Part shown: positions 3,001 through 17,268 of the stretch, one piece after another
Position numbering within the stretch: the stretch's first letter is position 1
How the letters are laid out: each line of letters begins with the position of its first letter
Origin: an uncultured Anaeroplasmataceae bacterium
GTDB taxonomy: Bacteria > Bacillota_I > Bacilli_A > Acholeplasmatales > Anaeroplasmataceae
Reading direction: 5' to 3'
Length of the DNA stretch: 64,000 nucleotides
Assembly: GCA_949840955.1 (NCBI GenBank)
Contig: CATKXV010000007.1
Coordinates: forward strand, 57,357 to 121,356
Program-made: the position numbers and the translations under genes
The notes under the pieces: model-generated
Databases searched by the model: none
Seen by the model: the letters and a program-made list of their open reading frames with translations, nothing else
Told to the model about the DNA's origin: nothing

Positions 3001-4203
3001 TGCCCAGCCAATAAAAGAATATCCTTTTTTAGTAGGTGTAGATAATGTTAATACCTTTTTGCCATATGTGACCTCTAATGCCTCAATACCCTTTGTATCG
3101 CTATCCAAATAATCCAATGTTAAATTGTATGTGTTTGCGTTCCATTTTGCATATAGAACTAGATTCTTGCCTAAATTTGATTCTAGACAATCAACTTGTT
3201 CTCCAACACATTCTTCATCATAATACCAGCCATCAAAGGTATATCCATTTCTTGATGGATCATATAGACTAATGTTATCAAGCTCTGCATTATATGATTC
3301 AATATTTTTAGGATGATTTGTTCCTCCATTTAGCTCATAAGTAATACTATAACTTTCTAAAATCCATTTTGCATATAATTTAATTTTGTATGAAAAGCTA
3401 ATGTCTGGTAAAATTTTCATCACTTTTCCTTTTAATTCTAAATTCGTATACCAGCCATCAAAATTATAACCTTGTCTAGTTGGAACAGGTAATGCTTTAT
3501 CCTTTGTAGTAATAGAATAAGAATGAATCGTATCATCTGGAAATATACACTCATGTGTATTCTCATAATAAACTTCACGTTCACCAAATATAAAACGATA
3601 TATTCCAAACACACTTATTACTAAAATACTTGCCAACAAAATCCAAGTAAAAATTTTTCTTTTTTTTCTCTTTGTTTGTATTTTTTTAGAATGTTCTAAA
3701 TCATCAGTCGTCTCTAAACTTTTCAAATCACTACGATGCTCATGTACCATAGCAAATATGCCTATAGGTATACCCAAAAGCAAATCTATTCTTTCAACAA
3801 TTATAGTATCAAAAACATTTGCAAAGCTAAGTACAGCAAACAAAACATAAACGATACCCAAACTAGACCAAAAGAGAATAAAGCCATCAATGTTTTTGAG
3901 GTGATTTTTAAAGCTTTTTGTCGATTTAAAATGTTTGTTGTGATTATCCAACCAAACATCTAATTGTGCTTCAATTTTAATTAGAATCTCCTTAATTTCT
4001 TCTGTTCTCATACCTCTTATATAATTTTGAAAACTAGCACTTGGAGAATCTCCTAAATCATTAAAAATTGGTAAATCAATTCGAACATCGTCATTCGAAT
4101 TTGTTTTTAAACGATTTGTGATTTTCAAATAATACTCCTGATATAGATTAGGATAATCGAACTTGAGTAATTCTATAAACTCTTTTAGTTCTTTTTTTGT
4201 CAT
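1..4203 (-). CDS. Giant surface protein, InlB B-repeats + LRR + GGx glycine-rich region (3' end outside window)
   Basis: This frame is open from ATG 4203 to base 1 (1401 codons, no stop), so the C-terminus is missing. Upstream, AGGAAAG/AGGGA precedes the start. There is no Sec signal. A roughly 100-residue N-terminal region is followed by hydrophobic segments near residues 104-128, 139-155 and 182-202, the last after a KRKKRK patch. Six Listeria-Bacteroides (InlB type) repeats follow at about 221-667, each ending in a GW...LYAKW-type motif. BspA/LRR_5-like leucine-rich sequence spans about 668-1070. A region dominated by GGNGGNGG and GGKGGKGG lies at about 1158-1370. The layout suggests a cytoplasmic head, membrane anchor and long extracellular stalk with adhesive repeats. 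It lies downstream of the ESCRT-like operon on the same strand, but 486 bases separate them, so co-transcription is uncertain. Domain identity is by eye; the function is inferred. Confidence 0.85.
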   Translation of the reverse strand, partial: MTKKELKEFIELLKFDYPNLYQEYYLKITNRLKTNSNDDVRIDLPIFNDLGDSPSASFQNYIRGMRTEEIKEILIKIEAQLDVWLDNHNKHFKSTKSFKNHLKNIDGFILFWSSLGIVYVLFAVLSFANVFDTIIVERIDLLLGIPIGIFAMVHEHRSDLKSLETTDDLEHSKKIQTKRKKRKIFTWILLASILVISVFGIYRFIFGEREVYYENTHECIFPDDTIHSYSITTKDKALPVPTRQGYNFDGWYTNLELKGKVMKILPDISFSYKIKLYAKWILESYSITYELNGGTNHPKNIESYNAELDNISLYDPSRNGYTFDGWYYDEECVGEQVDCLESNLGKNLVLYAKWNANTYNLTLDYLDSDTKGIEALEVTYGKKVLTLSTPTKKGYSFIGWALSTDDAVVFNNGDIWTISEDVTLIPKWEMEKYSIKLNYIDNTGKLIIDEILCGYNQIIQGMITPIRKGYAFIGWFDTEDQKYNNGDICDFASSKTLTAKWKLIQYNISYELNGQNVEAKDLVDSYNVELEPFMLNSPIRRGYTFAGWYYDSNFTGNRLIKIDTTLAKDLYLYAKWTANSYILSFESLYGENKSMTVYTGDKVSFPIPVESDLFLGWSTEIDSSTKVGLKENQIDWTIVPDNLGDNNTRLSLYAIWEEIPENWFSVEKDKMGNLCITGLTELWKTYSGALDKNKFILPNKYNGIDIVGISEGAFENNTSIIQVFIPNSIEYISNNAFKGCVKLNSIYGANGLIDLGNKAFSNTLWWEKDLGEYKNGFLVLGQIIVKYNRTATMNITESSFPSNVTVIGPNAFENINNSISETKRIVIPNIISKICDNAFINSGFTDITLPNNVEYGTSILKGTSLDYLRLNTNELDISNLFGEEEYIYIKNLSINTTLSTINFIGNNISLINLNLSNKNLTKVELLNFKEINYLDLSNNKLNAININGISINSLSLNNNLISTLNVTHILANEISIKENPINEILCFDENEYIEHLYLPNENSIKSLKSLEFINNLSAFQLVHLSSKTDINSIIVSDNITTIYIIGEDSLIETNDIQPYIFSLSMNNRNKEIDIFVNDAVLTSLENKSIVQYTGTSPLHLYLNNAILKSSSCEQPTLNCVNLDLFTYGYCEIIGADSNDTLLDGGVAVKCDSIRLNIYGTLNIRAGSGAAGSSTTSVGQSGGHGTSGGTAIESDSITFKNITTSAKISIIAGSGGNGGNGGKGEEKTGNCTAGSGGNGGNGGNSGHCIVSNLIYFDVKTIESIILLKNGNGGNGGNGGKGGYGNQATWVQSANGGKGGKGGNGGVSKSPIPNTTTLTGGTIDDFKRILVNDLASGGLGGNGGDGGDVHRDAVNKPTRGSGGNGGNGGNIEELSLKYGIGKTYALSTLSTEIKPESSKKGIG

Positions 4204-4689: not shown

Positions 4690-5571
4690 TTATACACGAA
4701 CACAAGAAACATATAAAATAAAAATTATTATGAAAAAAACTGTTTCAAAACTATAAATAATTGGACTTACCATGTCATAATCTATATCAAAGGAATTATA
4801 TTCATTTGCAAAAAACAAAATTTTTCTAATTATCATCAAAATACTATTAAACATCAAAAATATAAATAATGCAATTATAGCTCCTGTTATTTCTGTTATG
4901 GGATGATATGAGAAAAGCCATAGAGTAACAGTACTAAAAATCAAAAGAACTATTTCTAGAGTTTTCCCCCACTGCTTAAAATCAAATGTGGACCTATTGA
5001 AGTGATAAAACCAAATTATTACTGCAACTACATTAATAAGAGTTATTGAAAGTAAAGGAACAATGCAAAACCATGGCAATTTTACTTCTTCCATAAAAGA
5101 AAGATACCCCGGCCTATATAATATAAGCCATGATAATACTATATTAAAAACAAGTATGGTACATATAAACAAGCATGAGTAGAAGGCTACCCTTTTTTCG
5201 TTTCTTTCTTCTAGTTTATTTAAATCATATCTACTTAAGACCTTTGATTCATCTGCTTTTGAATGTATTCTATTGCTTAATTCCCTATAGTTTTCTTGTA
5301 AAGATGTGATATTAGCTTTTCTTTCAAGTTTTTCATTAAACCCACTTACTTTAGTGTCAAGATCATAATTTTGCTTGCGTAAACCATCCATACGTTCTTC
5401 AAGATTTAAAATCTTATTCTCTAATTCCACTTTTTCTTGCTCAAGTAACTGCAATTTTTCATGAAAGAAAGTATTTATATCTTCCATTTTTTTAAAATTC
5501 ACATAGACTTTTCCTTCAAGTATTTCAATTTGATTCGATTTAATACTATCTCCATCTTTTTCTTCTAACAT
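4690..5571 (-). CDS. Coiled-coil protein with four C-terminal membrane segments
   Basis: This 293-residue protein begins behind AGGAG and lies 16 bases after the Hsp70-like gene, so it is the last gene of the operon. Residues 1 to about 125 are charged with heptad-like spacing, typical of a long coiled coil. The rest holds about four hydrophobic helices separated by short loops, ending near the C-terminus. With no signal peptide, the coiled coil is probably cytoplasmic. I do not recognise the family. Coupled to an Hsp70/actin-fold ATPase and other membrane coiled-coil proteins, it is most simply a membrane anchor or scaffold of the same machine. Confidence 0.85.
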   Translation of the reverse strand: MLEEKDGDSIKSNQIEILEGKVYVNFKKMEDINTFFHEKLQLLEQEKVELENKILNLEERMDGLRKQNYDLDTKVSGFNEKLERKANITSLQENYRELSNRIHSKADESKVLSRYDLNKLEERNEKRVAFYSCLFICTILVFNIVLSWLILYRPGYLSFMEEVKLPWFCIVPLLSITLINVVAVIIWFYHFNRSTFDFKQWGKTLEIVLLIFSTVTLWLFSYHPITEITGAIIALFIFLMFNSILMIIRKILFFANEYNSFDIDYDMVSPIIYSFETVFFIIIFILYVSCVRV

Positions 5572-5587: not shown

Positions 5588-7387
5588 TTAATCTAATATT
5601 GTTTCATCCACTAATAGTTTTGAATATTTCATGATATCTCTAATATTTATCTTGTCAATCTCGCTAAATGACTTCTCACAATCATATATTTTGTATGTTA
5701 CAAAACTTATGTTTATAAAAAAAACAAAAAGCAAATTATATTTTGTTTGGAATAAAATATCCTTGGAGATTTTGCAAGTATGAATAAAATTTGAATTACT
5801 TATTTTAAATTCTATTTCTTGAAAATCTTCCCCATAGAACAATGTACGATAGCGCCAATTCTCGACAGTAGCTTTCTCACAATGTATATAATAAAAAGGA
5901 TTACTATCTTGACTAATAAGAATAAGTTTCTTGGTAGAAAGTTCTGTAGCTTGGGTAAAATTAGTTTCGTATCTTCTTTTATAAAACACTCGTGGTTTAA
6001 ACTGCAGTTTTGCTCCCATTTCCTCCATTGCTTTTATACAGCCTCCAATGGCAACTGCGTTGTAGCATGTGATAGGTATATCATCCATATCATCTATTTT
6101 TAATTTCCGAGTATTTTCACCAAACATATCTACTACCTTAATTTTTTTAGAACTAACCTCTTGTACAATACAAGTTAGTTTCTCTCGTAAAGGATAAATA
6201 ATAGATGTTCCTCCTACAAAAAAAATTGTGTCAATATCTTGTCTTTGAGAATAACTTTCAAGAGATTCTTTAAGAGAACTTGCTATTTTCTCAAAAACAT
6301 CTTTAATATTATTTTTTGTCTGGAATTGTTTTCCGTTCAAAAAAATTTCTCCTGTAGAGAGAATAGAATAATTCCTCTCATTATTTACACTATTAGAATC
6401 ATAACAAAATGTATGATTTTTCATACCATCATAATATACTGATCTCATTTTATTTATTTCAGTTTGAGGAGAACGGGTTTCTCCTATTTGGTTTGGATCA
6501 ATGCGTTCAGCAAGAAACATCTCTTCCTTTACTTGTTTACACATTTCTTTGGATTTTATCAATTCATCAGGTAAAAGGTCAAAGAAAATTTGATCAATTT
6601 CATTTCCTGCAATATTACATCCTGTCCCAATACTACTCACGTCCAATCGGCCATTTTCTTTTCTTAAAATACAAAAATCGGTAGTTCCTCCCCCTATATC
6701 AATCACAAGTATAGTTTCATTATCATCATTTTCACTCAATAAATATGTAGCTCCAGCTAATTCTGGTTCAGTCTTAACTTCTATTAAAACTTCATTTGTA
6801 GTTGCTTCAATACTTTTTAAAAGAATATTTTTTAAAGTTTCCTCATATGTCACTTGTGTCTCATAGATTTTATTAATAACAGGTTGTCCAATTACAATTT
6901 TTTGAATTGTATCTTTATTAATTTCATAATTTGTATCATCTATAAGCAGAATTCCCTTAAAAAAACGTATTAATAAATTACGGACAGAAACTATTAAAGG
7001 AAAATCATTACTACCAAATTGAATTTCCGAATCCATTCCACATTCTTCAAATGGAAATGGATATTCAATATACTTAGTGGTTTGATTAAACTTTCCATTT
7101 TCTGGAACTAGTTTTCTTGCCACATTTTTCATGTTTTTAAACAAACGTAAGATTGGTCTTTTAGATGCTTGCCTCCCAATATAATAGGTGGGCATAGTCT
7201 CACCATCCATAGCATAAGCTGTAATCACTGTAGCAGCATTAAAATTATTGTCAATTATGTCACGGCAAGTAGATTTAGTATAAAATTCACCACTTGTATA
7301 AAATTTACCTTCATCTTTATTATATGCAACCACGTGAGTATTGCTTGTCCCAAAATCAATTCCTATAAACCATTTTTTCTCTGACAT
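5588..7387 (-). CDS. Hsp70/actin-fold ATPase
   Basis: The 599-residue product carries the ATPase signatures of the Hsp70/actin superfamily: phosphate-1 IDFGTSNT at about residues 10-17, phosphate-2 VIDIGGGTTDF at about 226-236, and the adenosine motif FFVGGTSII at about 386-394. The nucleotide-binding fold therefore looks complete. The last 150 or so residues do not resemble the DnaK substrate-binding domain and may be a dedicated partner-binding region. An AGAGGTT ribosome site precedes the ATG, two bases after the stop of the upstream membrane gene. It is not the housekeeping dnaK: no grpE or dnaJ is nearby and the C-terminus differs. A chaperone or filament-forming role in the system is inferred from context. 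Confidence 0.88.
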   Translation of the reverse strand: MSEKKWFIGIDFGTSNTHVVAYNKDEGKFYTSGEFYTKSTCRDIIDNNFNAATVITAYAMDGETMPTYYIGRQASKRPILRLFKNMKNVARKLVPENGKFNQTTKYIEYPFPFEECGMDSEIQFGSNDFPLIVSVRNLLIRFFKGILLIDDTNYEINKDTIQKIVIGQPVINKIYETQVTYEETLKNILLKSIEATTNEVLIEVKTEPELAGATYLLSENDDNETILVIDIGGGTTDFCILRKENGRLDVSSIGTGCNIAGNEIDQIFFDLLPDELIKSKEMCKQVKEEMFLAERIDPNQIGETRSPQTEINKMRSVYYDGMKNHTFCYDSNSVNNERNYSILSTGEIFLNGKQFQTKNNIKDVFEKIASSLKESLESYSQRQDIDTIFFVGGTSIIYPLREKLTCIVQEVSSKKIKVVDMFGENTRKLKIDDMDDIPITCYNAVAIGGCIKAMEEMGAKLQFKPRVFYKRRYETNFTQATELSTKKLILISQDSNPFYYIHCEKATVENWRYRTLFYGEDFQEIEFKISNSNFIHTCKISKDILFQTKYNLLFVFFINISFVTYKIYDCEKSFSEIDKINIRDIMKYSKLLVDETILD

Positions 7388-7389
7388 TT

Positions 7390-8862
7390 TTAACCTCTTT
7401 GTGAACGATATTTTGCCAATATATTAGCTATAATTTGAAGCTGTTGACGCTGCGAAAAATAACTACCATATGGATTGTCAACATCAAATTCTATAGTAGA
7501 AATACGTTGAAAAGCTTTATCAATCTCTGGAAAATATTCTTCGATTGGGATTCTCGAACTATTATCTTCTAAATTCTTAATATTGTCGCTTTTTAATTTT
7601 AGATTTTCTTCATTTAAAGTATTAATTTTTTCTTCTAATTCCTTTATTTTTGCTTTATTTTTAAGGTTTTCACTTGATATGATTTTTTCTTCTTTTGATT
7701 TTTTTTCCATTACCTTCTCTAAATTTTCAGAGAAGGTAACCAATGCCAATTTTTTTTCTGCTTGTAACAACTGCTCACTTAAATTTTTAATATTAAAAAA
7801 TAACTTTTTATTTCCTTGCTTTAACAAATTGATTTTTCTTTTAAATTTCTTTTTTGTATTTCTAAAATCATTATTAAGTTTTATAATTATTTCTCTTTGA
7901 TTTTGATTTATCTTTTTTTCGTTAAAATATTTATAAAATAACCATGCAAGAAAACATCCAAGAGCAATCAATAAAACTATTAGAATCACTACTAATATAA
8001 TTCCACCAGAACTTATAAATTGTTTTTGTAAAATTTTATAGTTATAGTTTAAATCTCCAACTATAAGATAGTTATCATCAACTTCTTCTAAATTAATTGT
8101 AGCAACATTTTCTCCTGCATTTAATCCAGAATAATTAACTGATAATTCTATTAACGTGCCATCAATTCCTACAATGAACGCTTTTGGTCCCTGCAAAACT
8201 TTATTTTCTATGTAAAAATCAGATGCCTGCCACAAAACTTCAGTTGGATATTTTTCAATAATATAATCACAAGTTAAATTTGTTAAAACATAGTTTTCTC
8301 CTGCTGCTGTTGACTCAACTTTTGCAGTATAAGCTCCAGCTTCTTTTCCTAAGTTGGGTAATGGAAGAGATATTTCATTACCATTAACATCTATATAACT
8401 TGCCGTGGGACTTTGATTAACTCCATTGTATATATAATTTTCTTGTTTATTCCATTTCACTTCTACGCTCAATGGAAAAATGGTAAATCTTTCTCTATTG
8501 CCTTCTAAAAAGTTTATTTCATCACAATATGCAATTGCTATATAATCTCCTACATCGACAGCATTCATTTCCTCGTTATTTTTTAGAATAGTTATTGACA
8601 TAGTTTTCTCAAATGATTCATCTTCTTTACACTTAAGTATTGCAGATGGAAAATTATTTTTTCCATTATATGTAACATCTAAGTTTGACCATTCTAAATA
8701 ATATGTATAGTTTTCAACCACCTCATTACCAGAAATAGTTACTTCCTTCAAATCCTCTTTTTTTGTCGAAGAAGCAAATGCGTTTATATAGAATGCTCTA
8801 AAATGAACTGTTAATAAAATTATTAATAATAAACAAAATAACAAATATTTCTTTTTATGCAT
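7390..8862 (-). CDS. Membrane protein: extracellular MBG/Ig-like domains, one TM helix, cytoplasmic coiled coil
   Basis: The 490-residue protein starts with a hydrophobic signal-like segment (residues 5-30). About 250 residues follow with repeated YNG...ASYIDVNG and NYS...AGENVATI patterns, like MBG or bacterial Ig-like domains. A strong transmembrane helix lies at about 284-316, then a Lys/Glu-rich coiled coil to about 440 and a short globular tail. The topology places Ig-like domains outside and a long coiled coil inside, as expected of a receptor or anchor passing a signal across the membrane. Its ATG overlaps the preceding gene's stop by 8 bases and the next gene follows 2 bases after its stop, so translation is probably coupled. 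Exact domain families were judged by eye. Confidence 0.85.
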   Translation of the reverse strand: MHKKKYLLFCLLLIILLTVHFRAFYINAFASSTKKEDLKEVTISGNEVVENYTYYLEWSNLDVTYNGKNNFPSAILKCKEDESFEKTMSITILKNNEEMNAVDVGDYIAIAYCDEINFLEGNRERFTIFPLSVEVKWNKQENYIYNGVNQSPTASYIDVNGNEISLPLPNLGKEAGAYTAKVESTAAGENYVLTNLTCDYIIEKYPTEVLWQASDFYIENKVLQGPKAFIVGIDGTLIELSVNYSGLNAGENVATINLEEVDDNYLIVGDLNYNYKILQKQFISSGGIILVVILIVLLIALGCFLAWLFYKYFNEKKINQNQREIIIKLNNDFRNTKKKFKRKINLLKQGNKKLFFNIKNLSEQLLQAEKKLALVTFSENLEKVMEKKSKEEKIISSENLKNKAKIKELEEKINTLNEENLKLKSDNIKNLEDNSSRIPIEEYFPEIDKAFQRISTIEFDVDNPYGSYFSQRQQLQIIANILAKYRSQRG

Positions 8863-10480
8863 TACTTCTCCCCGCCTTTATAACTTGAATTATTGTTTTA
8901 TCTTCCTTAAAACAATTGTCATTTGTATCATACATCATTACTTTCTCTAAATTATTCATATTTGAAAATGGAATATGTCCATCAAAATTATCCTGTAATG
9001 AAACACCAGCACCTTCAAAAAATAAGTTTCGGACCTGCGAGAATCTTTCTAGAGTCTTGTCATCATTTGTATTTGGTTGACAATAAGCTATGTTAGTTAT
9101 CTCATTTCCACTATTATCTGTGCTGGGAATAATAAGTACACCACTATTGCTAACAGTATATTCATCTAATTTTATTCTATATAAATTAGGATGAATATCT
9201 TCTGACACTTTTTCTAGATTGGCTCTATGTAATTTCTTCCATTTTTCAACTCTTTCCATTTGGGTTTGTGAATCTTTTTCTTGGAGATGAGAAATATCTT
9301 GTATTACCCGTTCACATGACATTTCATACATATTTGGATCAACATCTATAAAGCTATTCTCACAAAGTGTACACCAGTATTTTGAATTATTTTTTCTACG
9401 TTGTTCACGAAAACCACAAAATGGACAACTTAGAAAAGAAGTTTCCTCTGAATTTATATTATCTGAATCTTCAAAGGTGATTTTTAGTAATTGTTTTTGA
9501 AGATTTTTTTGCTTTTGATCATATTCTGTTCTCAAACTTGATGATTCTATAACATCTTTTTTTTCATTAACTTCTTGAAGTTCACTCAAAATCTTGTCCA
9601 CTTGTTTCAACATAAATTGCTGGTTTGTTGCTATTTGAGTAACTCTCTTTTGAGTATCGCTAGAAGTTTCCATAAGTTTCAATACATTGCTATTCATAGA
9701 TTTAATATTATTATTTATTACTTTTATTTCTTCTTCAAGTTGGACGTTCAGATCGGAAATTATTTCAGTTGTTAATTGATTGCTATTATTTACACTAATT
9801 TTTTCTTTTATAGATGTCAGCATTAGTATTATTTTATCTGAATTTAACCTTTGGTTTTTAAGAATTTCATTTTCCAAATTATAATTCGTTTTGATTCCAA
9901 GTCTTGTTTCTTCAGCGGCTTTTTCAGCTACTGTAATATAATTAGCAATCAGTCTATTTAACTTAGGAATCGCTTCATCTGAATGCTCGTTTTTTTCGAT
10001 AAAGCCTTTTAATAACAAATACACGGATTGTAATATATCTAGAATGTCTTCACATAAACGATATATACCATTAATATCTTCATTAAGTGACTCTTTAAAT
10101 TCCTTTAAGCCTTTTTCCATTTTTTCATATTTTCTAGCATAATCGTTAATCATTTCAATCATACTTTTTTGTTGATTTTTTAATTCATCCAATTCAAATT
10201 TGAAATCTTTTTTTTCTTTGCAATGTTCTTTATATGTCTCAGCAAAAATTTTCTGTGCTTGCAAATCAAATAATTTTGTAATCGTGGTTTCCATTCGCTT
10301 TCCCAATGTATAATCCATCTGATTAGAAAATTCAGTAAATCTTTCCTTAAGCCACATTTCATATTCTCTCTCAGTAAAACCATAAGTGACAATTATATTA
10401 CCATTTTTCAGTTTTGTTCTTAAAAAATTAGGACTATTATCACCTGTTGTAGAATTTTTAACCTGACTTTTTCTACTCAT
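8855..10480 (-). CDS. Coiled-coil protein with zinc ribbon
   Basis: I place the start at ATG 10480, seven bases after GAGGAG, rather than the longer frame from 10513; this gives 541 residues and an 8-base overlap with the upstream gene. Residues 8-33 carry a motif (NSTTGDNSPNF, then NGNI) that also ends the upstream protein. A long coiled coil follows. A four-cysteine zinc ribbon (CPFC, then CTLC) lies around residues 347-375, and a mixed C-terminal domain closes the protein. There is no signal or membrane segment. The role is unknown; the shared motif suggests it binds the same partner as the neighbouring membrane protein or assembles with it. Confidence 0.82.
   Translation of the reverse strand: MSRKSQVKNSTTGDNSPNFLRTKLKNGNIIVTYGFTEREYEMWLKERFTEFSNQMDYTLGKRMETTITKLFDLQAQKIFAETYKEHCKEKKDFKFELDELKNQQKSMIEMINDYARKYEKMEKGLKEFKESLNEDINGIYRLCEDILDILQSVYLLLKGFIEKNEHSDEAIPKLNRLIANYITVAEKAAEETRLGIKTNYNLENEILKNQRLNSDKIILMLTSIKEKISVNNSNQLTTEIISDLNVQLEEEIKVINNNIKSMNSNVLKLMETSSDTQKRVTQIATNQQFMLKQVDKILSELQEVNEKKDVIESSSLRTEYDQKQKNLQKQLLKITFEDSDNINSEETSFLSCPFCGFREQRRKNNSKYWCTLCENSFIDVDPNMYEMSCERVIQDISHLQEKDSQTQMERVEKWKKLHRANLEKVSEDIHPNLYRIKLDEYTVSNSGVLIIPSTDNSGNEITNIAYCQPNTNDDKTLERFSQVRNLFFEGAGVSLQDNFDGHIPFSNMNNLEKVMMYDTNDNCFKEDKTIIQVIKAGRSNA
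10395..10459. repeat. 65-bp direct repeat, copy A
   Basis: This copy encodes the N-terminal NSPNF motif of the zinc-ribbon protein. It matches copy B at 10546-10610 at 59 of 65 positions by hand alignment. The two copies straddle the gene junction 151 bases apart. Confidence 0.85.
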
Positions 10481-11174
10481 TCTTTTTCTCCTCATTTGTG
10501 ACAATATCTTCATTTGGTTTTTTATAGCTATTGTAAGGGACGTTAATATTACCGTTTTTCACCTTTGTTCTTGAAAAATTAGGACTATTATTACCTATTG
10601 TAGAATTTTTTATTTGTTCTATTGAACGTGCAAAATCTTCTTTGTTTATTTTTCTTAATTCATTCATTTCTCTGCTTACTTTTTGTGCTTTCATATCACT
10701 AATACGTTCCCATGAAAATCCTAGAACACCAATACTGAAATCAATTACTCCTAAGCAAGTTGCTAATGTATTTGCCCAATTTACTTCATTTATAGCTCCC
10801 CATATAGCAATAATGGAACCACCAATAGCTATTAATGTTATGATTATAAGAAATATAATTAAACATCTTTTTCGCCCTATACGATTCTTTTCAAAAAAAG
10901 TATCTTCGTTTAACTCCCCTTTTTCATCCATTTTATTTTTTATATTAATTATTTCTTCTCCTAATTTTTCTACCTCTTTAGAATCTTTAGACTTAAAATT
11001 TTCTATAATTCTTTCAAAATCATTTGATATAACATAATTAGGATGGATTTCTGCTATTTTTTTAAGTTTTTCCAAATAAACTTTAAATTCAATGCCTGTA
11101 TTTATATCATTTTCATTTATGAATAATGAAGTTTCATAATTCCTAATTTTGCTATAAGCCTCTTTAATATTCAT
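10473..11174 (-). CDS. Two-TM membrane protein with C-terminal NSPNF motif
   Basis: The 233-residue protein starts four bases after the RuvB-like gene, behind GGGAGAG. Residues 1-100 are helical and charged. Two transmembrane helices lie at about 104-124 and 133-153. A cytoplasmic tail ends with a motif (NSTIGNNSPNF, then NGNI) at about 189-214 that is repeated at the N-terminus of the next protein. Short GDN-type motifs of this kind occur in other bacterial conflict proteins, but I cannot name the family. It is probably a membrane docking subunit; both termini are predicted inside. Confidence 0.83.
   Translation of the reverse strand: MNIKEAYSKIRNYETSLFINENDINTGIEFKVYLEKLKKIAEIHPNYVISNDFERIIENFKSKDSKEVEKLGEEIINIKNKMDEKGELNEDTFFEKNRIGRKRCLIIFLIIITLIAIGGSIIAIWGAINEVNWANTLATCLGVIDFSIGVLGFSWERISDMKAQKVSREMNELRKINKEDFARSIEQIKNSTIGNNSPNFSRTKVKNGNINVPYNSYKKPNEDIVTNEEKKNE
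10546..10610. repeat. 65-bp direct repeat, copy B
   Basis: This copy encodes the C-terminal NSPNF motif of the two-TM membrane protein. It pairs with copy A at 10395-10459. The likely origin is a local duplication of one short module across two adjacent genes. Confidence 0.85.
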
Positions 11175-11178
11175 TTTG

Positions 11179-12615
11179 TTACTCTCCCTTTAAATAATTC
11201 AATGCCTTTTCTGTAAGACTTCTCCCTCTACCTGTAACTGAAATAAATCCAATTTTAATTAAATATCTTTCAAATTCTGAAAGATATTTCTTTGTCTCTA
11301 ATCCTACTCTAGCTGATAAAACATCTGCACTAATTACTCCATTTGGTTCTTGTAGAATTACATTTAAAATTTCGATATCCTTTTTAGTTAGCCCTATTGA
11401 ATCAATTTCTTTTTCTTTAAAATAATCCAATGCTATATCTAAATCTATATTTGTAGATGTACGAACACCTTCATCATTATATAAAGCGTTGTTTAAACCA
11501 TCTACAATAGAATTAACATAACGAATTGCTCCACGACTACGAGGTATACAAATATCAATAGCTTCATCAGTTATTGTTAATCCCTTGGACATAATTTTGT
11601 TCTTATATATTTGTTTTAATTCTTCAAAAGTATAATCAACCAATTGGAAAGTCAGTCTAAGACATCTATTTTTTATTGTATCTAATACTTTATCATCATC
11701 TGTTGTTGCTGCAACAAATGTAAATTCATCAATAGGTATTCTCTTACATTGTCCATTAATATCTAAAGGTGAAACATATACTCGATTATTTAATAATGTT
11801 AATAAGCTTGACTGAAGTTCATTTGTGAGCATATGTATCTCATCTAATGCTATTAAAACTGGTTCATTATCCCTTGCTATTCTCATGAAAAAATTTTGCA
11901 ACGCCTTTAAGGATTGTTGACTATTCCTAAATTGTGAACAATCTAATAATTCAAATTTTACTCCTAACTCATTGGCAATAAGTTGCATTAAAGTGGTTTT
12001 CCCTAAGCCGGGATTACCAAATAATAAAATGTTATCTAAATGCTTTCTTCCTTCATTTTTAGCAATAGCAATTTCCTTTAAAAGATCCTTTATAATATGC
12101 GGCTGACCAATAAAAGATTTTAAGGAATCCGGATTATAAAACGGCTTTGTTTCATATTTTTGAATAGGTTCTTTTGGCGTGGTTTCTTTTGAAACTGGTG
12201 GAACAATTGAAATTTGTGATTTTGGTTCTTCTTTAGATGGAGTTGAAGGAACAATGCCTTCAATTGAAATATTATCTAATGGCTTATCATCTTCTGTTAT
12301 ATCAATTTTAGCTCTGCCATCCATAACATCTGAAAATGAGGGTAAATCTATATCTTCAATAAGACCAAATAATTTTTGAACACGACGATCTTTTAATCCA
12401 TGATTCTTAACTATATAAGCATATTTTTCAAATGTCTCTTGCCAATAACTTAGTTTAGCTTTAATAACAATAGAATCTCCATTATTTTTCTTATATTGTT
12501 CAGAAAACAAATTACATAAATCAATTAAACATGATAAAGTTTTTTCTTGATTTTCATTTCTTGCAGCATTTAAAGCTGCTCTATATTTTTCTCTAAATAT
12601 TTCCCCAAATTCCAT
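11179..12615 (-). CDS. RuvB-like AAA+ ATPase with MIT-like N-terminal domain
   Basis: The 478-residue protein has three parts. Residues 1-90 form a helical MIT-like domain, related by pattern to the N-termini of the two upstream proteins. A Pro/Ser-rich linker runs from about 90 to 155. A RuvB-like AAA+ core follows, with Walker A GNPGLGKTT (200-208), Walker B ALDEIH (256-261), a sensor AATT and an arginine finger near 317-320. The C-terminus (about 400-478) is a RuvB-like winged helix with RGRSLTEKA. Chromosomal RuvB has no such N-terminal domain and pairs with ruvA. Here the AAA+ core is probably recruited to the ESCRT-like polymer, with a remodelling rather than branch-migration role. Start behind AGGAGAGG, 20 bases after the protease gene. 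Confidence 0.88.
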   Translation of the reverse strand: MEFGEIFREKYRAALNAARNENQEKTLSCLIDLCNLFSEQYKKNNGDSIVIKAKLSYWQETFEKYAYIVKNHGLKDRRVQKLFGLIEDIDLPSFSDVMDGRAKIDITEDDKPLDNISIEGIVPSTPSKEEPKSQISIVPPVSKETTPKEPIQKYETKPFYNPDSLKSFIGQPHIIKDLLKEIAIAKNEGRKHLDNILLFGNPGLGKTTLMQLIANELGVKFELLDCSQFRNSQQSLKALQNFFMRIARDNEPVLIALDEIHMLTNELQSSLLTLLNNRVYVSPLDINGQCKRIPIDEFTFVAATTDDDKVLDTIKNRCLRLTFQLVDYTFEELKQIYKNKIMSKGLTITDEAIDICIPRSRGAIRYVNSIVDGLNNALYNDEGVRTSTNIDLDIALDYFKEKEIDSIGLTKKDIEILNVILQEPNGVISADVLSARVGLETKKYLSEFERYLIKIGFISVTGRGRSLTEKALNYLKGE

Positions 12616-12635: not shown

Positions 12636-13625
12636 TTATAATTCAATATTATTGCTTTTTGTCCATTTATTTAAAATTTCATTTATCTTTTCTGCAGAGG
12701 TTGCATTTGCATAACCATCTGCAACAACACCATTAACAGAAACTATTTTCGATTTGTTTATTCCTATACATTCTCCAAAGCGATTTAATACTGGCCCTCC
12801 AGAGTCTCCTGGATTTGAAGGTGCTGTATAAACTAAATCATTATCATCATTCTTTGTAAATCTCACTACTCCTGTAAATGGAGCAAGTCCCATAGCAAAA
12901 GCATTGCCTATAACTAAGCAATCCGCTCCTTGTAATACTTTTTCATAGTCTGATATTATCTTAATTACTGAAAATTGTTCCACCTCTTCAGGTTTAAATT
13001 TACATAATGCTATATCTGTTTTTTTATCAGAAAATAAAACATCAACTGCATAATTTTTCTTGCTTTTAGCAAATGACATCTTTATTTTTTTATAATAGCT
13101 TCCAGTTTCTTCATCAAAAATAATATGGTCATTTGTTAATAAATAACCATTAGTAGATATAATAAAGCCTGTCCCTGTAGTATCCTTAGAAGAGGTCTGT
13201 ATTGTGAGTTGTACCACTGCAGATCTATATTTTTCAAATAATTCTGCACACCACCCTTGAGATTTTGAAGTTTCCTCTATTAGCCCTTGAAAATCAATTG
13301 AATCATTTATATTATTATTTTCTTTTTTAGGAATAGACGCTCTTTTTTCCTTATTTGGTTGTGCTTTTAAAGTACTTGATAAATCAAAGCATTCTAATAC
13401 ATACTCTGTAATTCCTTTAGCATATAAATCCTTAGAAACCAAAATCCATCTATCCAAAAATGCTGCTGTCTTAGCCTTTATCAATATAGATGTGGCTGAA
13501 TTGTATGTCTTGACAGCAGCATTTAATATTTGTAAAACGTATGCCCTTGCTGCTTTCGGATTTTTTTGTTTAATTAATTCTTTAGCATTAGTATAATACG
13601 TTGCAATAATATCACTTTTACTCAT
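12636..13625 (-). CDS. Intracellular trypsin-like serine protease with MIT-like N-terminal domain
   Basis: This 329-residue protein has no signal peptide. Residues 1-80 are three-helix MIT-like, followed by a Lys/Asn-rich linker and a chymotrypsin-fold protease from about 130. The catalytic triad is visible: His167 in TNDHI, Asp204 in KTDIAL, Ser275 in NPGDSGGPV. The oxyanion glycine is kept. No PDZ domain follows, unlike HtrA/DegP. The gene overlaps the Vps4-like gene by 8 bases. Cytoplasmic trypsin-like proteases are uncommon outside conflict and quality-control systems, so a role in cleaving a partner once the assembly forms is a reasonable inference. Protease identity is secure; the MIT call is by pattern only. 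Confidence 0.9.
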   Translation of the reverse strand: MSKSDIIATYYTNAKELIKQKNPKAARAYVLQILNAAVKTYNSATSILIKAKTAAFLDRWILVSKDLYAKGITEYVLECFDLSSTLKAQPNKEKRASIPKKENNNINDSIDFQGLIEETSKSQGWCAELFEKYRSAVVQLTIQTSSKDTTGTGFIISTNGYLLTNDHIIFDEETGSYYKKIKMSFAKSKKNYAVDVLFSDKKTDIALCKFKPEEVEQFSVIKIISDYEKVLQGADCLVIGNAFAMGLAPFTGVVRFTKNDDNDLVYTAPSNPGDSGGPVLNRFGECIGINKSKIVSVNGVVADGYANATSAEKINEILNKWTKSNNIEL

Positions 13626-14814
13626 TTTTATTCCTTAAAACCTTTTCTAATTCTTCATATGGTATACCCCTATCATATGCTTCAAAGCGCATAAGGACTT
13701 CTGGCGTTACTCCATTGATATAGTTTTTAATAACATTTTCACAATCTGTAAGTGTTATTACTTCTCCCAATGCATGTTTGATTTTAGGATTTAAAATGTT
13801 TTTTACTTCTCTTCTTAATGGTTCATTCGCTATTTGCTTTATCACTGCTTTTATATCAGCTCCAGAATACCCCTTTAGCATCTGAGCAAGAAGCTGCGTG
13901 GTTACCTCTTGACTATGTGGAATTCTAGCAAGCTCTAATTCTATAAATTTCTCTCTTGCAGATTCATCCGGAAGTGGGACATAGATTTGTGTTTCAAATC
14001 TACCACCTCGCTTTAAAGCAGAATCCAACTTCCATGGTAAATTTGTTGCAGCAACAATAATTCTAAGTTGTCCATCTTTTTTTGTTTTTAAAAATCCATC
14101 CATGCAAGTTAGCATTGTAGTAAGTATAGATTTAGTATGACGAGAATCATCTGAATTTCTATCACTACATATGCTATCTATTTCATCTAAGAAGATAATA
14201 CAACGATCCAATTCTGCTGCTTGTTTAAAAATATCTCTTATGTTTTTTTCAGCCACGCCAACTACACTAGCCAAAACCTCGCTTGTTTGTACAACTGCAA
14301 TTTTACAGTTTAAGGCTCCTGCTAAACATTTTACTATATGTGTCTTACCCGTTCCTGGAGGACCATATAGTAAAATTTGGCTTCCCATTTGATCTCCTCG
14401 AAATTTTTTATAGATGTCTTTAAATTCAGGTCGAAGTGGTGCTACAACATCTACCATAAAGGCATCTTTAACCTCTTGAGCCCCTATTATATTTGTAAAA
14501 TTTAGATTTGGAACCTCATTTGAAAACCATTCTTTTGGAATGTAATATGGATCATTTGCGTTTTCTACATTAGAGGAATTCAATGTAGCATGCGTTTTTG
14601 CAATATTAGAAAGATGAGTACATGCAGACAATGCTTGCCTTTTATAAGTTTCCTTAAGTGATAGATTAACACTAGATTTTGGGCACTCCTCTAATGCAAT
14701 GCGAAGCATATCAAAGCCAATTTCGCAAACGGAATCAGTATCATCATTCCTAAGGGCATTATTAAATGCACTAACTTTATTATTAAAAATACTAATCATG
14801 CTTGCTTCTGACAT
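13618..14814 (-). CDS. Vps4-like AAA ATPase with MIT-like N-terminal domain
   Basis: This 398-residue protein matches the layout of Vps4. An MIT-like helical domain (about 6-75) and a linker lead to a meiotic-clade AAA core with Walker A GPPGTGKTH (151-159), Walker B IIFLDEID (206-213), sensor AATN (255-258), and RFETQIYVPLPDE, close to the RFEKRIYIPLPE of Vps4. A C-terminal helix (about 370-390, TPEVLMRFEAYDRGIPYEE) corresponds to the Vps4 C-terminal helix. One oddity: pore loop 1 reads ASVVG, lacking the aromatic residue of the usual K-W-x-G. In eukaryotes and archaea Vps4 disassembles ESCRT-III polymers; the gene just upstream looks like its substrate. Start behind AAGGAGAG. It overlaps the protease gene by 8 bases. 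Confidence 0.9.
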   Translation of the reverse strand: MSEASMISIFNNKVSAFNNALRNDDTDSVCEIGFDMLRIALEECPKSSVNLSLKETYKRQALSACTHLSNIAKTHATLNSSNVENANDPYYIPKEWFSNEVPNLNFTNIIGAQEVKDAFMVDVVAPLRPEFKDIYKKFRGDQMGSQILLYGPPGTGKTHIVKCLAGALNCKIAVVQTSEVLASVVGVAEKNIRDIFKQAAELDRCIIFLDEIDSICSDRNSDDSRHTKSILTTMLTCMDGFLKTKKDGQLRIIVAATNLPWKLDSALKRGGRFETQIYVPLPDESAREKFIELELARIPHSQEVTTQLLAQMLKGYSGADIKAVIKQIANEPLRREVKNILNPKIKHALGEVITLTDCENVIKNYINGVTPEVLMRFEAYDRGIPYEELEKVLRNKNE

Positions 14815-14825
14815 ATATGCTCTCC

Positions 14826-15452
14826 TTATTTTTTCTTATTTTCTTCTTCAACAATACCAGCATAATCGATGTCCCCAGTGGAAGAATCAATATGTTCTAC
14901 AGGCTTAGAAATTGCTTCAGGTGTAACCTTTGCCTTAATTCTTTCCATCATTGCTGCATATTCAGCCTTGAATTGATCTGACATTTCTTCTTCATTTGTT
15001 CCATCTAGACGACTCGTTAGTGTACTCTCGGTTGATTGTGGAGAAAGAACACCATCTAAAATAGAGTTCAACTTCTCTATTTCATCTGCTGGTTTTTGCA
15101 TATCTTTAAAAATTCTTTTAATGCTATTACCAAGTTTTTTAAAATTAGGTGACTCTGATAATAACCCTTTACATCCAGCAATAGCATCTGGAAGAGATGC
15201 TAGATTAGATGCCACTTGAGATGTACATGCACCTAATTCTATATTGGCTTTTAAAGTAGACAATTGTTCAGCTAAAGAGTAAACCCCAATTTTTTGTTTA
15301 ATTAATTGTTTAGCTCTAGCATCATCTCCACGCATTGCAGCTTGGTCAATATGATAATCATACTTCTCTCCAAACCTGTGTAAATCTCTATAGGACTTAT
15401 CTAGTTTGTCTAAAGCACTAATAATTTTTTCTTCATTACTTAATTTTGCCAT
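14826..15452 (-). CDS. ESCRT-III-like protein with MIM1-like motif
   Basis: This 208-residue, almost entirely helical protein follows the pattern of Snf7/CHMP proteins. A basic helix pair (about 1-70) contains a turn like that of ESCRT-III (AAMRGDDARAKQLI at 38-51). Further helices run to about 135, with a Lys-rich stretch at 105-120. An acidic C-terminal half contains ESTLTSRLDGT at 142-152, close to the MIM1 consensus (D/E)xxLxxRLxxL, and a weaker second copy near 164-176. MIM1 is the helix by which ESCRT-III proteins bind MIT domains. The next gene is Vps4-like with an MIT-like domain, 11 bases away. I infer a membrane-bound polymer subunit. PspA/Vipp1 are the usual bacterial relatives, but they lack MIM motifs. 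Only a profile search can confirm homology. Confidence 0.65.
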   Translation of the reverse strand: MAKLSNEEKIISALDKLDKSYRDLHRFGEKYDYHIDQAAMRGDDARAKQLIKQKIGVYSLAEQLSTLKANIELGACTSQVASNLASLPDAIAGCKGLLSESPNFKKLGNSIKRIFKDMQKPADEIEKLNSILDGVLSPQSTESTLTSRLDGTNEEEMSDQFKAEYAAMMERIKAKVTPEAISKPVEHIDSSTGDIDYAGIVEEENKKK

Positions 15453-15474
15453 TGTTCTTTTTCCTTTCTTCTTT

Positions 15475-16086
15475 TTAAGCTATATTTTTTTTCTTTTCAT
15501 CTTTTCTATTTGGAATTGCTAGTTCTGCTGCTTTAATAATTTCTTCTATTTCTTCAGGTGTTGGAATATCCATTACTCTACGAACATTAGCCTCATGATC
15601 TTCTAATTCATCTAACGAAGAATCAAGAATCCTGTTTTGTGAAGTTACACTCATTGCTTCATCAGAAAGAGTCCTTAATAAAGTAACTGCTATTTCTCTT
15701 AGTTCTTGTAAATATTTAACACTACTAGCTGCCTTCATTAAAGCATGTTCAGGAATAGCTTTCCAAACATCGCTATAATCTCCTGAAGAAATTTTTGCCT
15801 GAGACACTTCAATTACAGCCTTGAAAATATTAATAATAGCCGTAAATTTTTCAATGTTCAATTGTTTTGCTTTAACTCCTGCTCTAGTTTCCACAAGTTT
15901 TAGGTGTTCATTCTTTAATCGATACTCATAAAGACGAACAACATCTTCTAAAAGAAAAAACTCTACTAACGCTTCTCTATCAAATATGGAAATTTTTTCT
16001 GGAGAATTCTTGCGATAGTCCTCAGCTCTTTTTACACGAAACTTATGTGATGTAATATATTGTTGCATCATTCCATATAGGTACAA
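15475..16086 (-). CDS. Helical protein, first gene of the ESCRT-like operon
   Basis: About 203 residues, nearly all helical, no membrane segment. The C-terminal third is acidic and ends with TPEEIEEIIKAAELAIP before a Lys-rich tail, so it could carry an MIT-interacting helix like its neighbour. It may be a second, diverged ESCRT-III-like subunit or an accessory factor; I cannot decide. The start is unclear: TTG at 16086 opens the frame, ATGs occur at 16071 and 16068, but the best ribosome site (GGGAAGG) lies about 8 bases before an in-frame ATT at 16098. The stop is 22 bases before the next gene. Confidence 0.75.
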   Translation of the reverse strand: MYLYGMMQQYITSHKFRVKRAEDYRKNSPEKISIFDREALVEFFLLEDVVRLYEYRLKNEHLKLVETRAGVKAKQLNIEKFTAIINIFKAVIEVSQAKISSGDYSDVWKAIPEHALMKAASSVKYLQELREIAVTLLRTLSDEAMSVTSQNRILDSSLDELEDHEANVRRVMDIPTPEEIEEIIKAAELAIPNRKDEKKKNIA

Positions 16087-16159
16087 TGGTTGTCTAATCT
16101 TTGTACCTTCCCTTTCTTAATATTATAAATGATATTAGACTTATCATTTTTGCCACTGA

Positions 16160-16305
16160 TGATTATAATCAGTGTTAAAATATATACAGAGATAAAATAA
16201 AAGGACATATTCTAGCCTTTTTCGATAAATATCTCTACCAAATTATTGCCATATTTGGGAATTTATGGTAAAATTTTAGTAAGATTTTGTCGCTGATTAT
16301 AATCA
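16160..16305. promoter_or_regulatory. Operon promoter region with two copies of a 12-bp palindrome
   Basis: The perfect palindrome TGATTATAATCA occurs at 16160-16171 and again at 16294-16305, both upstream of the ESCRT-like operon. Each copy contains a TATAAT hexamer, so a regulator bound there would cover a -10 element. The first copy is flanked by CACTGA/TCAGTG arms. No convincing -35 is seen. The second copy lies beside a GTCACTT/AAGTGAC hairpin at 16311-16326 that has a T run on the plus strand. Confidence 0.5.
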
Positions 16306-16338
16306 TTTGTGTCACTTCAAAAGTGACATTTTATTTTT

Positions 16339-17268
16339 TTATAATAATTTTCCAACTAAATTCATCATTTCTTTTTTGTGCTCTAACATAGAATGAGCAT
16401 ATCTATTTAGAGTTATAATAGGAGATTTATGTCCCAAAATTTCTGATAATGTTTTTACATCCATACCACACTCTAATGCTCTTGTAGCAAAGGTATGTCT
16501 TAATGAATGAAAATTATGGTGCTTGATATTAAGTTTTTCTAAAAGTTTTTCAAAATTTCTTTGATATGTTCTAACAGAAATAATTCTATTTCCTTTAGAA
16601 ATAATGTAAGGGGATTCGCTTGTTAATTTATGACTCTTTAGCAAAGATAATAATTTATTAGGGAGTGGGATAATGCGTGTAGACGATGTGGTTTTGGGAG
16701 TGTCTATAATCCTTCCAAAACTACTATCCTCTTTCATTCCATCATAACATGATTTATTAATGTGTAATATACCACCTTTAAAATCGATGTCTGTCCATTC
16801 AAGAGCTAATAATTCACCCAAACGAATGCCCGTATATAAGCTAATAATGATTCCTAGCAAATGAGGTTTATGTGTCGTTAAAACCTCCTTTTCAATTTGT
16901 TTTTGCTCAATAATAGTTAAGCAATCCACTTTTTTTTCAATTGATTTTGGTCTTTTTAATTTAATCGCAGCATTGTAGCGAATTAAATTCAATTCATAAG
17001 CAGTACGAAATGAATTTTGTATAACATTAATAATTGAATTAACAGTATTTGATGCCAAACCTTCTTTAGTACGCTTATTTCCCTTTAATAACAATTCAGT
17101 AATAATTCTTTGAAGCATTATGGGGGTTATTTTACTTATTTCAATTTCTCCAAGCATAGGAATTAAATGATATTCTATTATCCCCTCATATCGTTCTACC
17201 GTTCTTGATTTGGATGACAATTTAACATAATTATTCATCCATTCCTTTAACCAAATCTTATATTTCAT
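16339..17268 (-). CDS. Tyrosine recombinase / integrase, intact
   Basis: This 309-residue phage-type integrase has an N-terminal SAM-like core-binding domain (1 to about 110) and a C-terminal catalytic domain. The catalytic set is visible: Arg in YTGIRLGELLAL, His-x-x-Arg in HSLRHTFATRALE, His in LGHKSPIITLNRY and Tyr in RYAHS. Start behind AAGGAGG. A TATAAT -10 lies about 40 bases upstream. It points the same way as the ESCRT-like operon and sits 250 bases before it, so it probably marks the end of an integrated element. The decayed integrase at 47.2-48.1 kb is a clear relative of the same length. Confidence 0.93.
   Translation of the reverse strand: MKYKIWLKEWMNNYVKLSSKSRTVERYEGIIEYHLIPMLGEIEISKITPIMLQRIITELLLKGNKRTKEGLASNTVNSIINVIQNSFRTAYELNLIRYNAAIKLKRPKSIEKKVDCLTIIEQKQIEKEVLTTHKPHLLGIIISLYTGIRLGELLALEWTDIDFKGGILHINKSCYDGMKEDSSFGRIIDTPKTTSSTRIIPLPNKLLSLLKSHKLTSESPYIISKGNRIISVRTYQRNFEKLLEKLNIKHHNFHSLRHTFATRALECGMDVKTLSEILGHKSPIITLNRYAHSMLEHKKEMMNLVGKLL

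Follow-up and report, generated by a model that had tools for sequence, protein, structure and literature searches.

A Snf7-type gene beside an ATPase gene with a predicted MIT domain

We analyzed a 64,000-nt stretch of DNA from an uncultured Anaeroplasmataceae bacterium (assembly GCA_949840955.1, contig CATKXV010000007.1, positions 57,357 to 121,356 of the forward strand; hereafter the window) and found that it encodes a Snf7-type protein of 208 amino acids (aa), resembling component III of the endosomal sorting complex required for transport (ESCRT-III; 14826..15452), beside a 398-aa Vps4/CdvC-like AAA ATPase with a predicted N-terminal MIT domain (13618..14814). In archaea and in human cells, ESCRT-III proteins sever and remodel membranes. 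Both genes belong to a conserved unit that also holds a second helical protein, a trypsin-like protease and a RuvB-like ATPase, and on balance we lean towards the view that the operon of Snf7-type protein, predicted-MIT ATPase, protease and RuvB-like ATPase works as a membrane-remodelling machine in an immune-like conflict island. This reading builds on gene content and order, intact catalytic motifs, membership in the Snf7 family, a patchy spread and a site that carries TIR/NACHT-like leucine-rich repeat (LRR) genes in two relatives, together with a predicted MIT fold of the ATPase; it would entail polymerisation, binding of MIT domains to ESCRT-III tails and a role in immunity. Coordinates are those of the window unless a locus is named, and every gene of the window described here lies on the minus strand.

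An initial annotation, made from the sequence alone, had proposed the two open reading frames as an ESCRT-III-like protein and its Vps4-like partner, and both lie where it had placed them. The 208-aa protein matched Pfam Snf7 (PF03357) over residues 8-159 with E 1.8e-6 and 28.2 bits against a cut-off of 27.3, and a Snf7 search of the whole genome returned this protein as its only match. A protein search with it gave 242 relatives at E<=1e-3 among 448 candidates (120 listed), and in an alignment of 45 diverse members of the family (A1), 36 matched Snf7 at E<=1e-3, while no other family was matched at that level. When the predicted structure was compared with the PDB using Foldseek, the best 14 matches were all eukaryotic or Asgard ESCRT-III proteins, ranked above PspA and Vipp1, and the model shows the long alpha1-alpha2 hairpin, alpha3 and alpha4 of the ESCRT-III core fold. 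Because 36 of the 45 relatives match Snf7 and none matches another family at that level, and given the Foldseek ranking, a chance match of a single coiled coil was ruled out, so that the ESCRT-III-like assignment held. Comparison of the ESCRT-III profile with PDB sequences yielded a single match, to a MotA-type protein (E 0.74), and was of no use. The protein thus belongs to Snf7, and it may form a membrane-bound polymer.

A 36-bp stretch of the ESCRT-III gene (15290-15325) recurs with 86% identity in the protease gene (13562-13597), encoding the helix segment AK(E/Q)LIKQK in both; the resemblance may be chance.

Like PspA and Vipp1 (IM30), the 208-aa protein is bacterial and falls in the ESCRT-III superfamily (PMC8281802, in its accessible part). 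Unlike them, it matches Snf7 and lies nearer to eukaryotic and Asgard ESCRT-III by Foldseek; PspA_IM30 was not among the three Pfam families with E up to 1 for this protein, and a search of the host genome for PspA_IM30 gave zero matches. The claim that these bacterial relatives have no Vps4 partner stands in the form that none is established: in the accessible part of their article, Liu et al. call it unclear whether PspF is a Vps4-like ATPase for PspA, or whether Vipp1 has an equivalent ATPase (PMC8281802). A bacterial Snf7-type gene beside a predicted-MIT ATPase would make this question testable in a small set that can be reconstituted. A survey of phage shock protein (PSP) systems describes, in the text available, bacterial PspA/Snf7 homologues with AAA+ ATPases and the transfer of Vps4-like ATPases to bacteria, but there a tetratricopeptide-repeat/six-transmembrane (TPR/6TM) protein has replaced snf7 at the bacterial Vps4-like genes, the Snf7-AAA operons carry ATP-binding cassette (ABC) transport genes, and the word trypsin is absent from the main text (PMC11237479). 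Word searches of the main texts of two large surveys of bacterial conflict systems (PMC7159879, PMC8195603) found no mention of ESCRT, Snf7, Vps4, MIT domain or RuvB, and a search of the open-access literature, with preprints and most subscription journals outside it, turned up no description of the five-gene set in the portions of text accessible.

The ATPase and the tail motifs of its putative partner

The first 80 residues of the ATPase (14575..14814) were modelled by AlphaFold2 as a three-helix bundle, with a predicted local distance difference test (pLDDT) score above 90 in its core. The top Foldseek match in the PDB was 2v6y, the MIT domain of the S. solfataricus Vps4-like ATPase (probability 0.99, root-mean-square deviation 1.9 over 73 columns, E 0.56), so the model displays the N-terminal three-helix MIT fold of Vps4 and CdvC, and the MIT-like domain of the initial annotation is borne out as a prediction. 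At the level of sequence profiles, MIT was not among the 25 of 39 Pfam families listed for the ATPase, and searches of PDB sequences with the N-termini of the ATPase, the protease and the RuvB-like ATPase gave zero MIT domains among their hits. Profile comparisons of the ATPase N-terminus with the protease and RuvB-like N-termini, and with the MIT-like domains of a second kind of bacterial locus (type B, described below; loci of the window's kind are termed type A), were not significant.

The Walker A and B motifs of the AAA core (Pfam AAA, E 1.4e-36) are intact, and the stretch RFETQIYVPLPDE is kept in close form, in all 14 aligned copies of the ATPase, the window's included. NxPWxLD, a motif typical of the Vps4/katanin clade, is present in the window's ATPase and in all 13 other copies checked. 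In a search of PDB sequences with the AAA core, Vps4 (2rko) was the highest-scoring chain with a single matched stretch (142.5 bits), and two-domain p97-type chains stood above it by summed score, at 134.7 bits per domain in the two chains that give this figure. For the C-terminal 114 residues, p97/CDC48 chains came first by whole chain (up to 41.4 bits, over two domains); scored separately, the best p97/CDC48 domain among those listed reached 26.3 bits, and the best single-domain chains listed were mei-1 (34.9 bits) and katanin (34.1 bits). The alignments of three katanin entries extend as far as positions 92-94 of 113 in this C-terminal part, into its last helix. The NCBIfam CdvC model aligns residues 67-381 of the ATPase and is the only one of the AAA-core models listed that extends to residue 381.

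Two motifs stand out in the tail of the 208-aa protein. The first, located in the A1 alignment, is ESTLTSRLDGT at residues 142-152 (14997..15029), which the initial annotation had described as resembling MIT-interacting motif 1 (MIM1); R148 and L149 are invariant across A1, and 42 of the 45 relatives retain [hydrophobic]x[ST]RLD. The second, which the annotation had overlooked, is DIDYAGIVEEE at residues 194-204 (14841..14873), recognised from A1 and from profile scoring. A DIDYAGIIxEE-like tail is found in all 45 A1 members, and a motif of this kind also occurs directly after the MIT-like domain of the protease.

Two results weigh against the favoured reading. The full MIM1 consensus, [DE]xxLxxRLxxL[KR], was found in 0/45 A1 relatives, and its [DE]xx[hydrophobic]xxRL part in 19/45, so that the MIM1 claim comes down to an incomplete, weak motif, however well its RLD portion is conserved. 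Among NCBIfam models, CDC48 (174.9 bits) and FtsH (162.6 bits) both scored the ATPase above CdvC (147.9 bits). For the annotation's Vps4-like AAA core with a Vps4-like C-terminal helix speak 2rko, NxPWxLD and the mei-1 and katanin matches, and against it the p97 whole chains and the CDC48 and FtsH models; the sequence signals for a Vps4 assignment are mixed, and the subfamily of the AAA core is best called unsettled. The ATPase would disassemble ESCRT-III in an ATP-dependent manner, and MIT domains may bind ESCRT-III tails, a putative interaction.

A trypsin-like protease with a copied tail motif

The next gene encodes a 329-aa trypsin-like protease (12636..13625; Trypsin_2, E 7e-18), in which the catalytic His, Asp and Ser are kept in 14/14 copies. 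Its N-terminal helical domain (residues 1-82; 13380..13625) appears MIT-like: hhalign related it to the MIT-like domains of type-B AAA proteins with P 2.7e-4 and a probability of 42%, and to the N-terminus of the RuvB-like ATPase with P 1.4e-7. The RuvB-like N-terminus itself gave no significant profile match to the type-B MIT-like domains. A profile match of the protease N-terminus to Rns regulators (E 4e-4) was taken as chance, the matched Rns region being, we presume, another fold.

The linker that follows this domain carries SIDFQGLIEET at residues 109-119 (13269..13301), a copy of the ESCRT-III tail motif by profile (p=0.003 against 300 shuffles). The tail profile scored above shuffles (p<0.02) in 13 of 14 protease genes, the exception being divergent L021, whose proteins were entered twice, under protease and under RuvB-like, so that 13 of 15 rows correspond to 13 of 14 genes. 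In the RuvB-like family, four of 13 rows reached p<0.02, three in the linker (L006, L009, L010) and one at residue 466 (L021); the window's own RuvB-like protein was not significant. No row reached significance among 13 for the ATPase or 14 for the second helical protein, and one of four integrase rows, that of the window's integrase, fell below p<0.02. The protease and its copied motif suggest that recruitment here follows a code similar to the one used by eukaryotic MIT cofactors. Human calpain-7 binds IST1 through two MIT domains, and is likewise a protease brought to ESCRT-III by such domains (PMC10586806 and PMC9477494, in their accessible parts). It is, in contrast, a cysteine protease with two MIT domains, whereas the protease here has a trypsin fold, one MIT-like domain and a tail-motif copy of its own.

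The RuvB-like AAA+ ATPase (478 aa; 11179..12615) has a helical N-terminus, RuvB_N (E 9.9e-18) and RuvB_C (E 6.9e-15) matches and a C-terminal winged helix, and its Walker motifs are kept in 12/12 copies. On the other side of the ESCRT-III gene lies the second helical protein (H203, 203 aa; 15475..16086), present in one or two copies per locus. None of 13 members of its family matched Pfam Snf7, and its profile showed no link to that of A1; against the PDB, a designed repeat protein came first (E 6.8e-12) and CHMP3 next (E 0.11). In the variable region of two other loci we noticed partial extra copies, of the protease 3′ end at L009:7150-7454 and L012:16375-16518 and of the RuvB-like 5′ end in L009, as if cassettes had been exchanged by recombination.

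An AAA ATPase gene adjoining a serine protease gene is also the arrangement of IetAS, and the pair here might be a defence system of that kind, with the helical proteins as scaffolds or substrates and no ESCRT-like membrane work; we consider this quite unlikely. PADLOC IetA profiles do match the AAA core (E 7.7e-39), and NCBIfam IteA_antiphage gives 119.2 bits, but the IetA match is confined to residues 142-353 within the AAA core, the IteA_antiphage score lies far below its curated cut-off of 510 and also below the scores of CDC48, FtsH and CdvC, and the protease is trypsin/HtrA-like, whereas IetS is subtilisin-like and so of a different fold. The Snf7 protein, moreover, is present in all 12 other loci described below, though these were found through it. 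We know of no ESCRT-III partner of IetAS.

Conservation and patchy spread of the set

The conserved unit, consisting of the 203-aa helical protein, ESCRT-III, the MIT-AAA ATPase, the trypsin-like protease and the RuvB-like ATPase, recurs in 12 other type-A loci from other genomes, recorded as Mollicutes, Anaeroplasma, Acholeplasmatales and Clostridia. These loci were found via the ESCRT-III protein, so its presence in 12/12 is by selection; the 203-aa protein and the protease are likewise present in 12/12. The RuvB-like ATPase occurs in 11/12 (truncated in L009 and L013, where the stretch ends) and was not found in L012, where the contig ends. The MIT-AAA gene stands side by side with the ESCRT-III gene in 11/12, and in the twelfth genome (G571) an ATPase 63-65% identical is encoded on another contig, a point in favour of a functional link over hitch-hiking. 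One genome (G568) holds a second, divergent copy of the set, with identities of 31% for ESCRT-III, 46% for the ATPase, 41% for the protease and 40% for the RuvB-like ATPase. A Snf7-type protein, not of the PspA/Vipp1 type, is thus conserved in bacteria together with a predicted-MIT AAA ATPase. The two-gene unit that had been proposed is real as a conserved pair, but it left out the protease, the RuvB-like ATPase, the 203-aa protein, the island and the type-B loci L040-L043.

Within the host's family, four of 55 genomes had an ESCRT-III match (2/31 of the near-complete ones), and 51 of 55 had none (29/31). More widely, relatives were found in three of 395 genomes of the class and two of 392 of the phylum; a G187 hit that contributes one to each count was discounted as a 39-residue match at E 4e-4. 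No relative was found among 109 candidate stretches from viral contigs.

As in archaeal Cdv and Asgard ESCRT systems, the Snf7-type gene here adjoins an AAA ATPase gene with a predicted N-terminal MIT fold, and the best structural matches of the models are eukaryotic and Asgard ESCRT-III and an archaeal Vps4-type MIT domain. The set differs from those systems in being bacterial, accessory and of patchy occurrence, in including a trypsin-like protease as well as a RuvB-like ATPase, and in its incomplete MIM1 consensus. A Snf7-type protein with an MIT-AAA ATPase makes up the Cdv/ESCRT core (PMC11237479, in the text accessible), and the set could in principle be a machine for cell division or vesicle formation like archaeal Cdv, a reading to which we give hardly any credence. 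The host has a tubulin-family (FtsZ) gene and 51 of the 55 family genomes are without an ESCRT-III match; for these reasons the set appears dispensable for division, and a division role is unlikely. Nor does a Cdv core gene replace FtsZ in this lineage, with ESCRT-III in 4/55 genomes and FtsZ present.

The island, its cassettes and a linked module

The neighbourhood of the set points to immunity. A tyrosine integrase (16339..17268; Phage_integrase, E 2.9e-26) lies beside it, as in three other loci (L003, L007 with two frames, and L010), that is, in 4 of 13 loci, several of the others ending at contig ends. In several loci, cassette genes lie between the protease and the RuvB-like gene. The window's five-gene cassette encodes a membrane protein of 233 aa (10473..11174; hydrophobic stretch at residues 99-129; relatives in L003, L004, L006 and L028), a coiled-coil protein with CxxC pairs of 552 aa (8855..10513), a membrane protein of 490 aa with two hydrophobic stretches (7390..8862), an Hsp70/actin-fold protein of 599 aa (5588..7387; HSP70, E 3.4e-11) and a membrane protein of 293 aa with four hydrophobic stretches (4690..5571). 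The last four likewise have relatives in L028, a Clostridia locus in which all five recur in the same order. Exchangeable cassettes elsewhere encode a protein with a sub-threshold DO-GTPase2 match (L003) and BspA-type LRR proteins (L006, L007, L010), of which that of L007 has a sub-threshold TIR match. At the window's edge, positions 1..4203 encode the first 1401 of 1440 aa of a membrane protein with Listeria-Bacteroides and LRR_5 repeats and three hydrophobic stretches.

The large LRR and repeat proteins have in common a DYPxLYxxYY-like N-terminal stretch, which a motif scan found in L006:12843-15323, L008:12867-15464 and L010:12834-15845 and which we recognised by eye in the window (1-4203). 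They may dock to the core through it. A 77-bp direct repeat, 87% identical (10383-10459 and 10534-10610), lies in the 552-aa and 233-aa genes and encodes in both a motif around NSTxGDNSPNFxRTKxKNGNI. Downstream of the set in another locus, one protein joins a TIR domain to a following methyltransferase domain (L011:18406-19695).

Past the window's edge, the island continues with the 1440-aa repeat protein and CvpA-like, DUF1292-like, ClpP, 539-aa, TraG-like and FtsK-like genes, named from Pfam matches of relatives in L022 and L028 (DUF1292 below cut-off) or, for CvpA and the 361-aa FtsK-like protein, by eye. This region, left of the window on the same contig (L047:5721-13872), includes a module of ClpP, 539-aa protein, TraG-like, helix-turn-helix (HTH) and FtsK-like genes. 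The module's 539-aa protein is encoded in 4/4 ESCRT genomes of the family against 3/51 others (Fisher P 1e-4, ignoring relatedness) and in 11 of 12 type-A genomes, seven of which have it on the same contig as ESCRT-III, 4 to 25 kb apart; it was found in none of four type-B genomes.

In G048 and in G049 (74% complete), relatives that gave no ESCRT match, the ClpP/TraG module sits beside the same flanking genes. That of G048 adjoins a 1302-aa TIR-NACHT-like-LRR protein and a separate TIR-like protein, and that of G049 an NTPase-LRR protein of 1147 aa, incomplete at the contig start. The 1302-aa protein scores above the Pfam cut-off for TIR, the separate TIR-like protein and both NACHT matches fall below theirs, and the NTPase of the 1147-aa protein barely passes as KAP_NTPase. 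Antiphage defence in bacteria is known to employ NACHT and TIR proteins. The module without ESCRT is also present in a third genome, G027, in which the stretch examined had no TIR/NACHT-like LRR gene.

No tRNA that could serve as an integration site was found within the window. The left-flank gene occurs in 10 of 11 genomes of the genus; in the six relatives examined, neither the module nor the right-flank genes were found near it, so that the island's end is a putative one.

The TraG-like gene, resembling type IV secretion system (T4SS) coupling proteins, and the FtsK-like genes of the linked module (by Pfam on the L028 relatives) might suggest instead a mobile element's transfer machinery, in which the FtsK-, TraG- and RuvB-like motors and the integrase would move DNA and the ESCRT-III-like part would give the membrane the shape needed for this. 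L043 encodes an FtsK motor protein that would fit as well, its N-terminus looking, by eye, similar to ESCRT-like proteins. We nevertheless regard transfer as very unlikely: a reading of these regions, without a dedicated search, brought to notice neither a relaxase nor any other gene for conjugation, and the module is also found next to TIR/NACHT-like LRR genes in genomes that gave no ESCRT match.

A further alternative is a role in repairing the envelope under stress and none in immunity, the set being a Snf7-type equivalent of the phage shock protein system; we rate this as unlikely but deserving of attention. PspA and Vipp1 are ESCRT-III relatives tied to membrane repair (PMC8281802, PMC11237479, in their accessible parts), and the host's lack of a PspA_IM30 match would suit such a counterpart. 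Against repair stand the presence in only 4/55 family genomes, the integrase beside the set in the window and three other loci (several others being ended by contig ends), the variable LRR, TIR-like and GTPase-like cassettes, and the occupation of the same site by TIR/NACHT-like LRR genes in G048 and G049. Because of the genes at the module site and the patchy spread, we favour an immune-like role over plain envelope repair.

Proposed mechanism

A more specific form of the immune-like reading, which we put forward tentatively as possible rather than probable, is that of an ESCRT-III immune machine: sensor cassettes would switch on a Snf7-type filament that recruits, by one shared code of MIT domains and tail motifs, a Vps4-like unfoldase, a trypsin-fold protease and a RuvB-like motor, in a slot where relatives keep TIR/NACHT-like LRR receptors. 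For the favoured reading as such, we propose the following course of events, in which all steps beyond gene content are ones that we infer. Cassette-encoded sensors, whether LRR, TIR-like, GTPase-like or Hsp70-like, would fire, and upon sensing the 208-aa protein, perhaps with its 203-aa helical partner, would polymerise on the inner membrane. Two motifs in the tail of this protein, SRLDG and DIDYxGIIxEE, would draw in the ATPase with its predicted MIT domain, and the ATPase could then extract subunits from the filament in the manner of Vps4; the RuvB-like motor might be recruited via the same motifs. The protease would reach this filament through its MIT-like N-terminus, much as calpain-7 reaches IST1 through its MIT domains in human cells, and may then cut a partner while the ATPase takes the filament apart. 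With a copy of the ESCRT-III tail motif in its linker, the protease might vie with the filament for a single receptor, which would provide a built-in switch. In the end, an attacked membrane would be sealed or the cell killed in a controlled way. If the specific form with one shared code were true, all three domains of life would have an MIT recruitment code and would even use it to deliver a protease to an ESCRT-III filament.

A second kind of bacterial locus

A Snf7 search of the order of G568 matched 10 of 297 genomes, three of them above cut-off. Four of the ten are known type-A genomes (G566-G569), and four of the remaining six (G644, G684, G777, G811) encode ESCRT-like proteins with an AAA gene having an MIT-like N-terminus, the AAA protein of G777 being of a different lid type (AAA_lid_6). 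The Snf7 matches in G781 and G642 were set aside, having by eye the look of unrelated coiled coils. A 192-aa protein of L040 matches Snf7 with 34.0 bits and the adjoining AAA protein matches Vps4_C with 18.9 bits, and in L042 a Snf7-like protein lies beside an AAA protein with a Vps4_C match of 19.5 bits, both Vps4_C scores being below the cut-off of 21.3. Searched against the PDB, the MIT-like profile of L040-L043 found the archaeal MIT domain 2w2u best (E 0.43) and ribosomal protein bS20 next (E 0.51). By their sequences, the L040 and L042 loci appear to pair the same parts as the window and so support the ESCRT theme, and the existence of two bacterial locus kinds that pair these parts may bear on the origin of the ESCRT toolkit.

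Two type-B proteins have unusual architectures. A single 555-aa protein of L041 (10969-12633) joins a Snf7-like region, scoring 24.5 bits (below the cut-off) in one search and 28.0 (above it) in another, to a RuvB-like ATPase. The L043 motor protein already mentioned (14772-16670; 633 aa) combines FtsK_alpha and FtsK motor domains with an N-terminus in which we saw, by eye, a likeness to the ESCRT-III-like proteins of L041.

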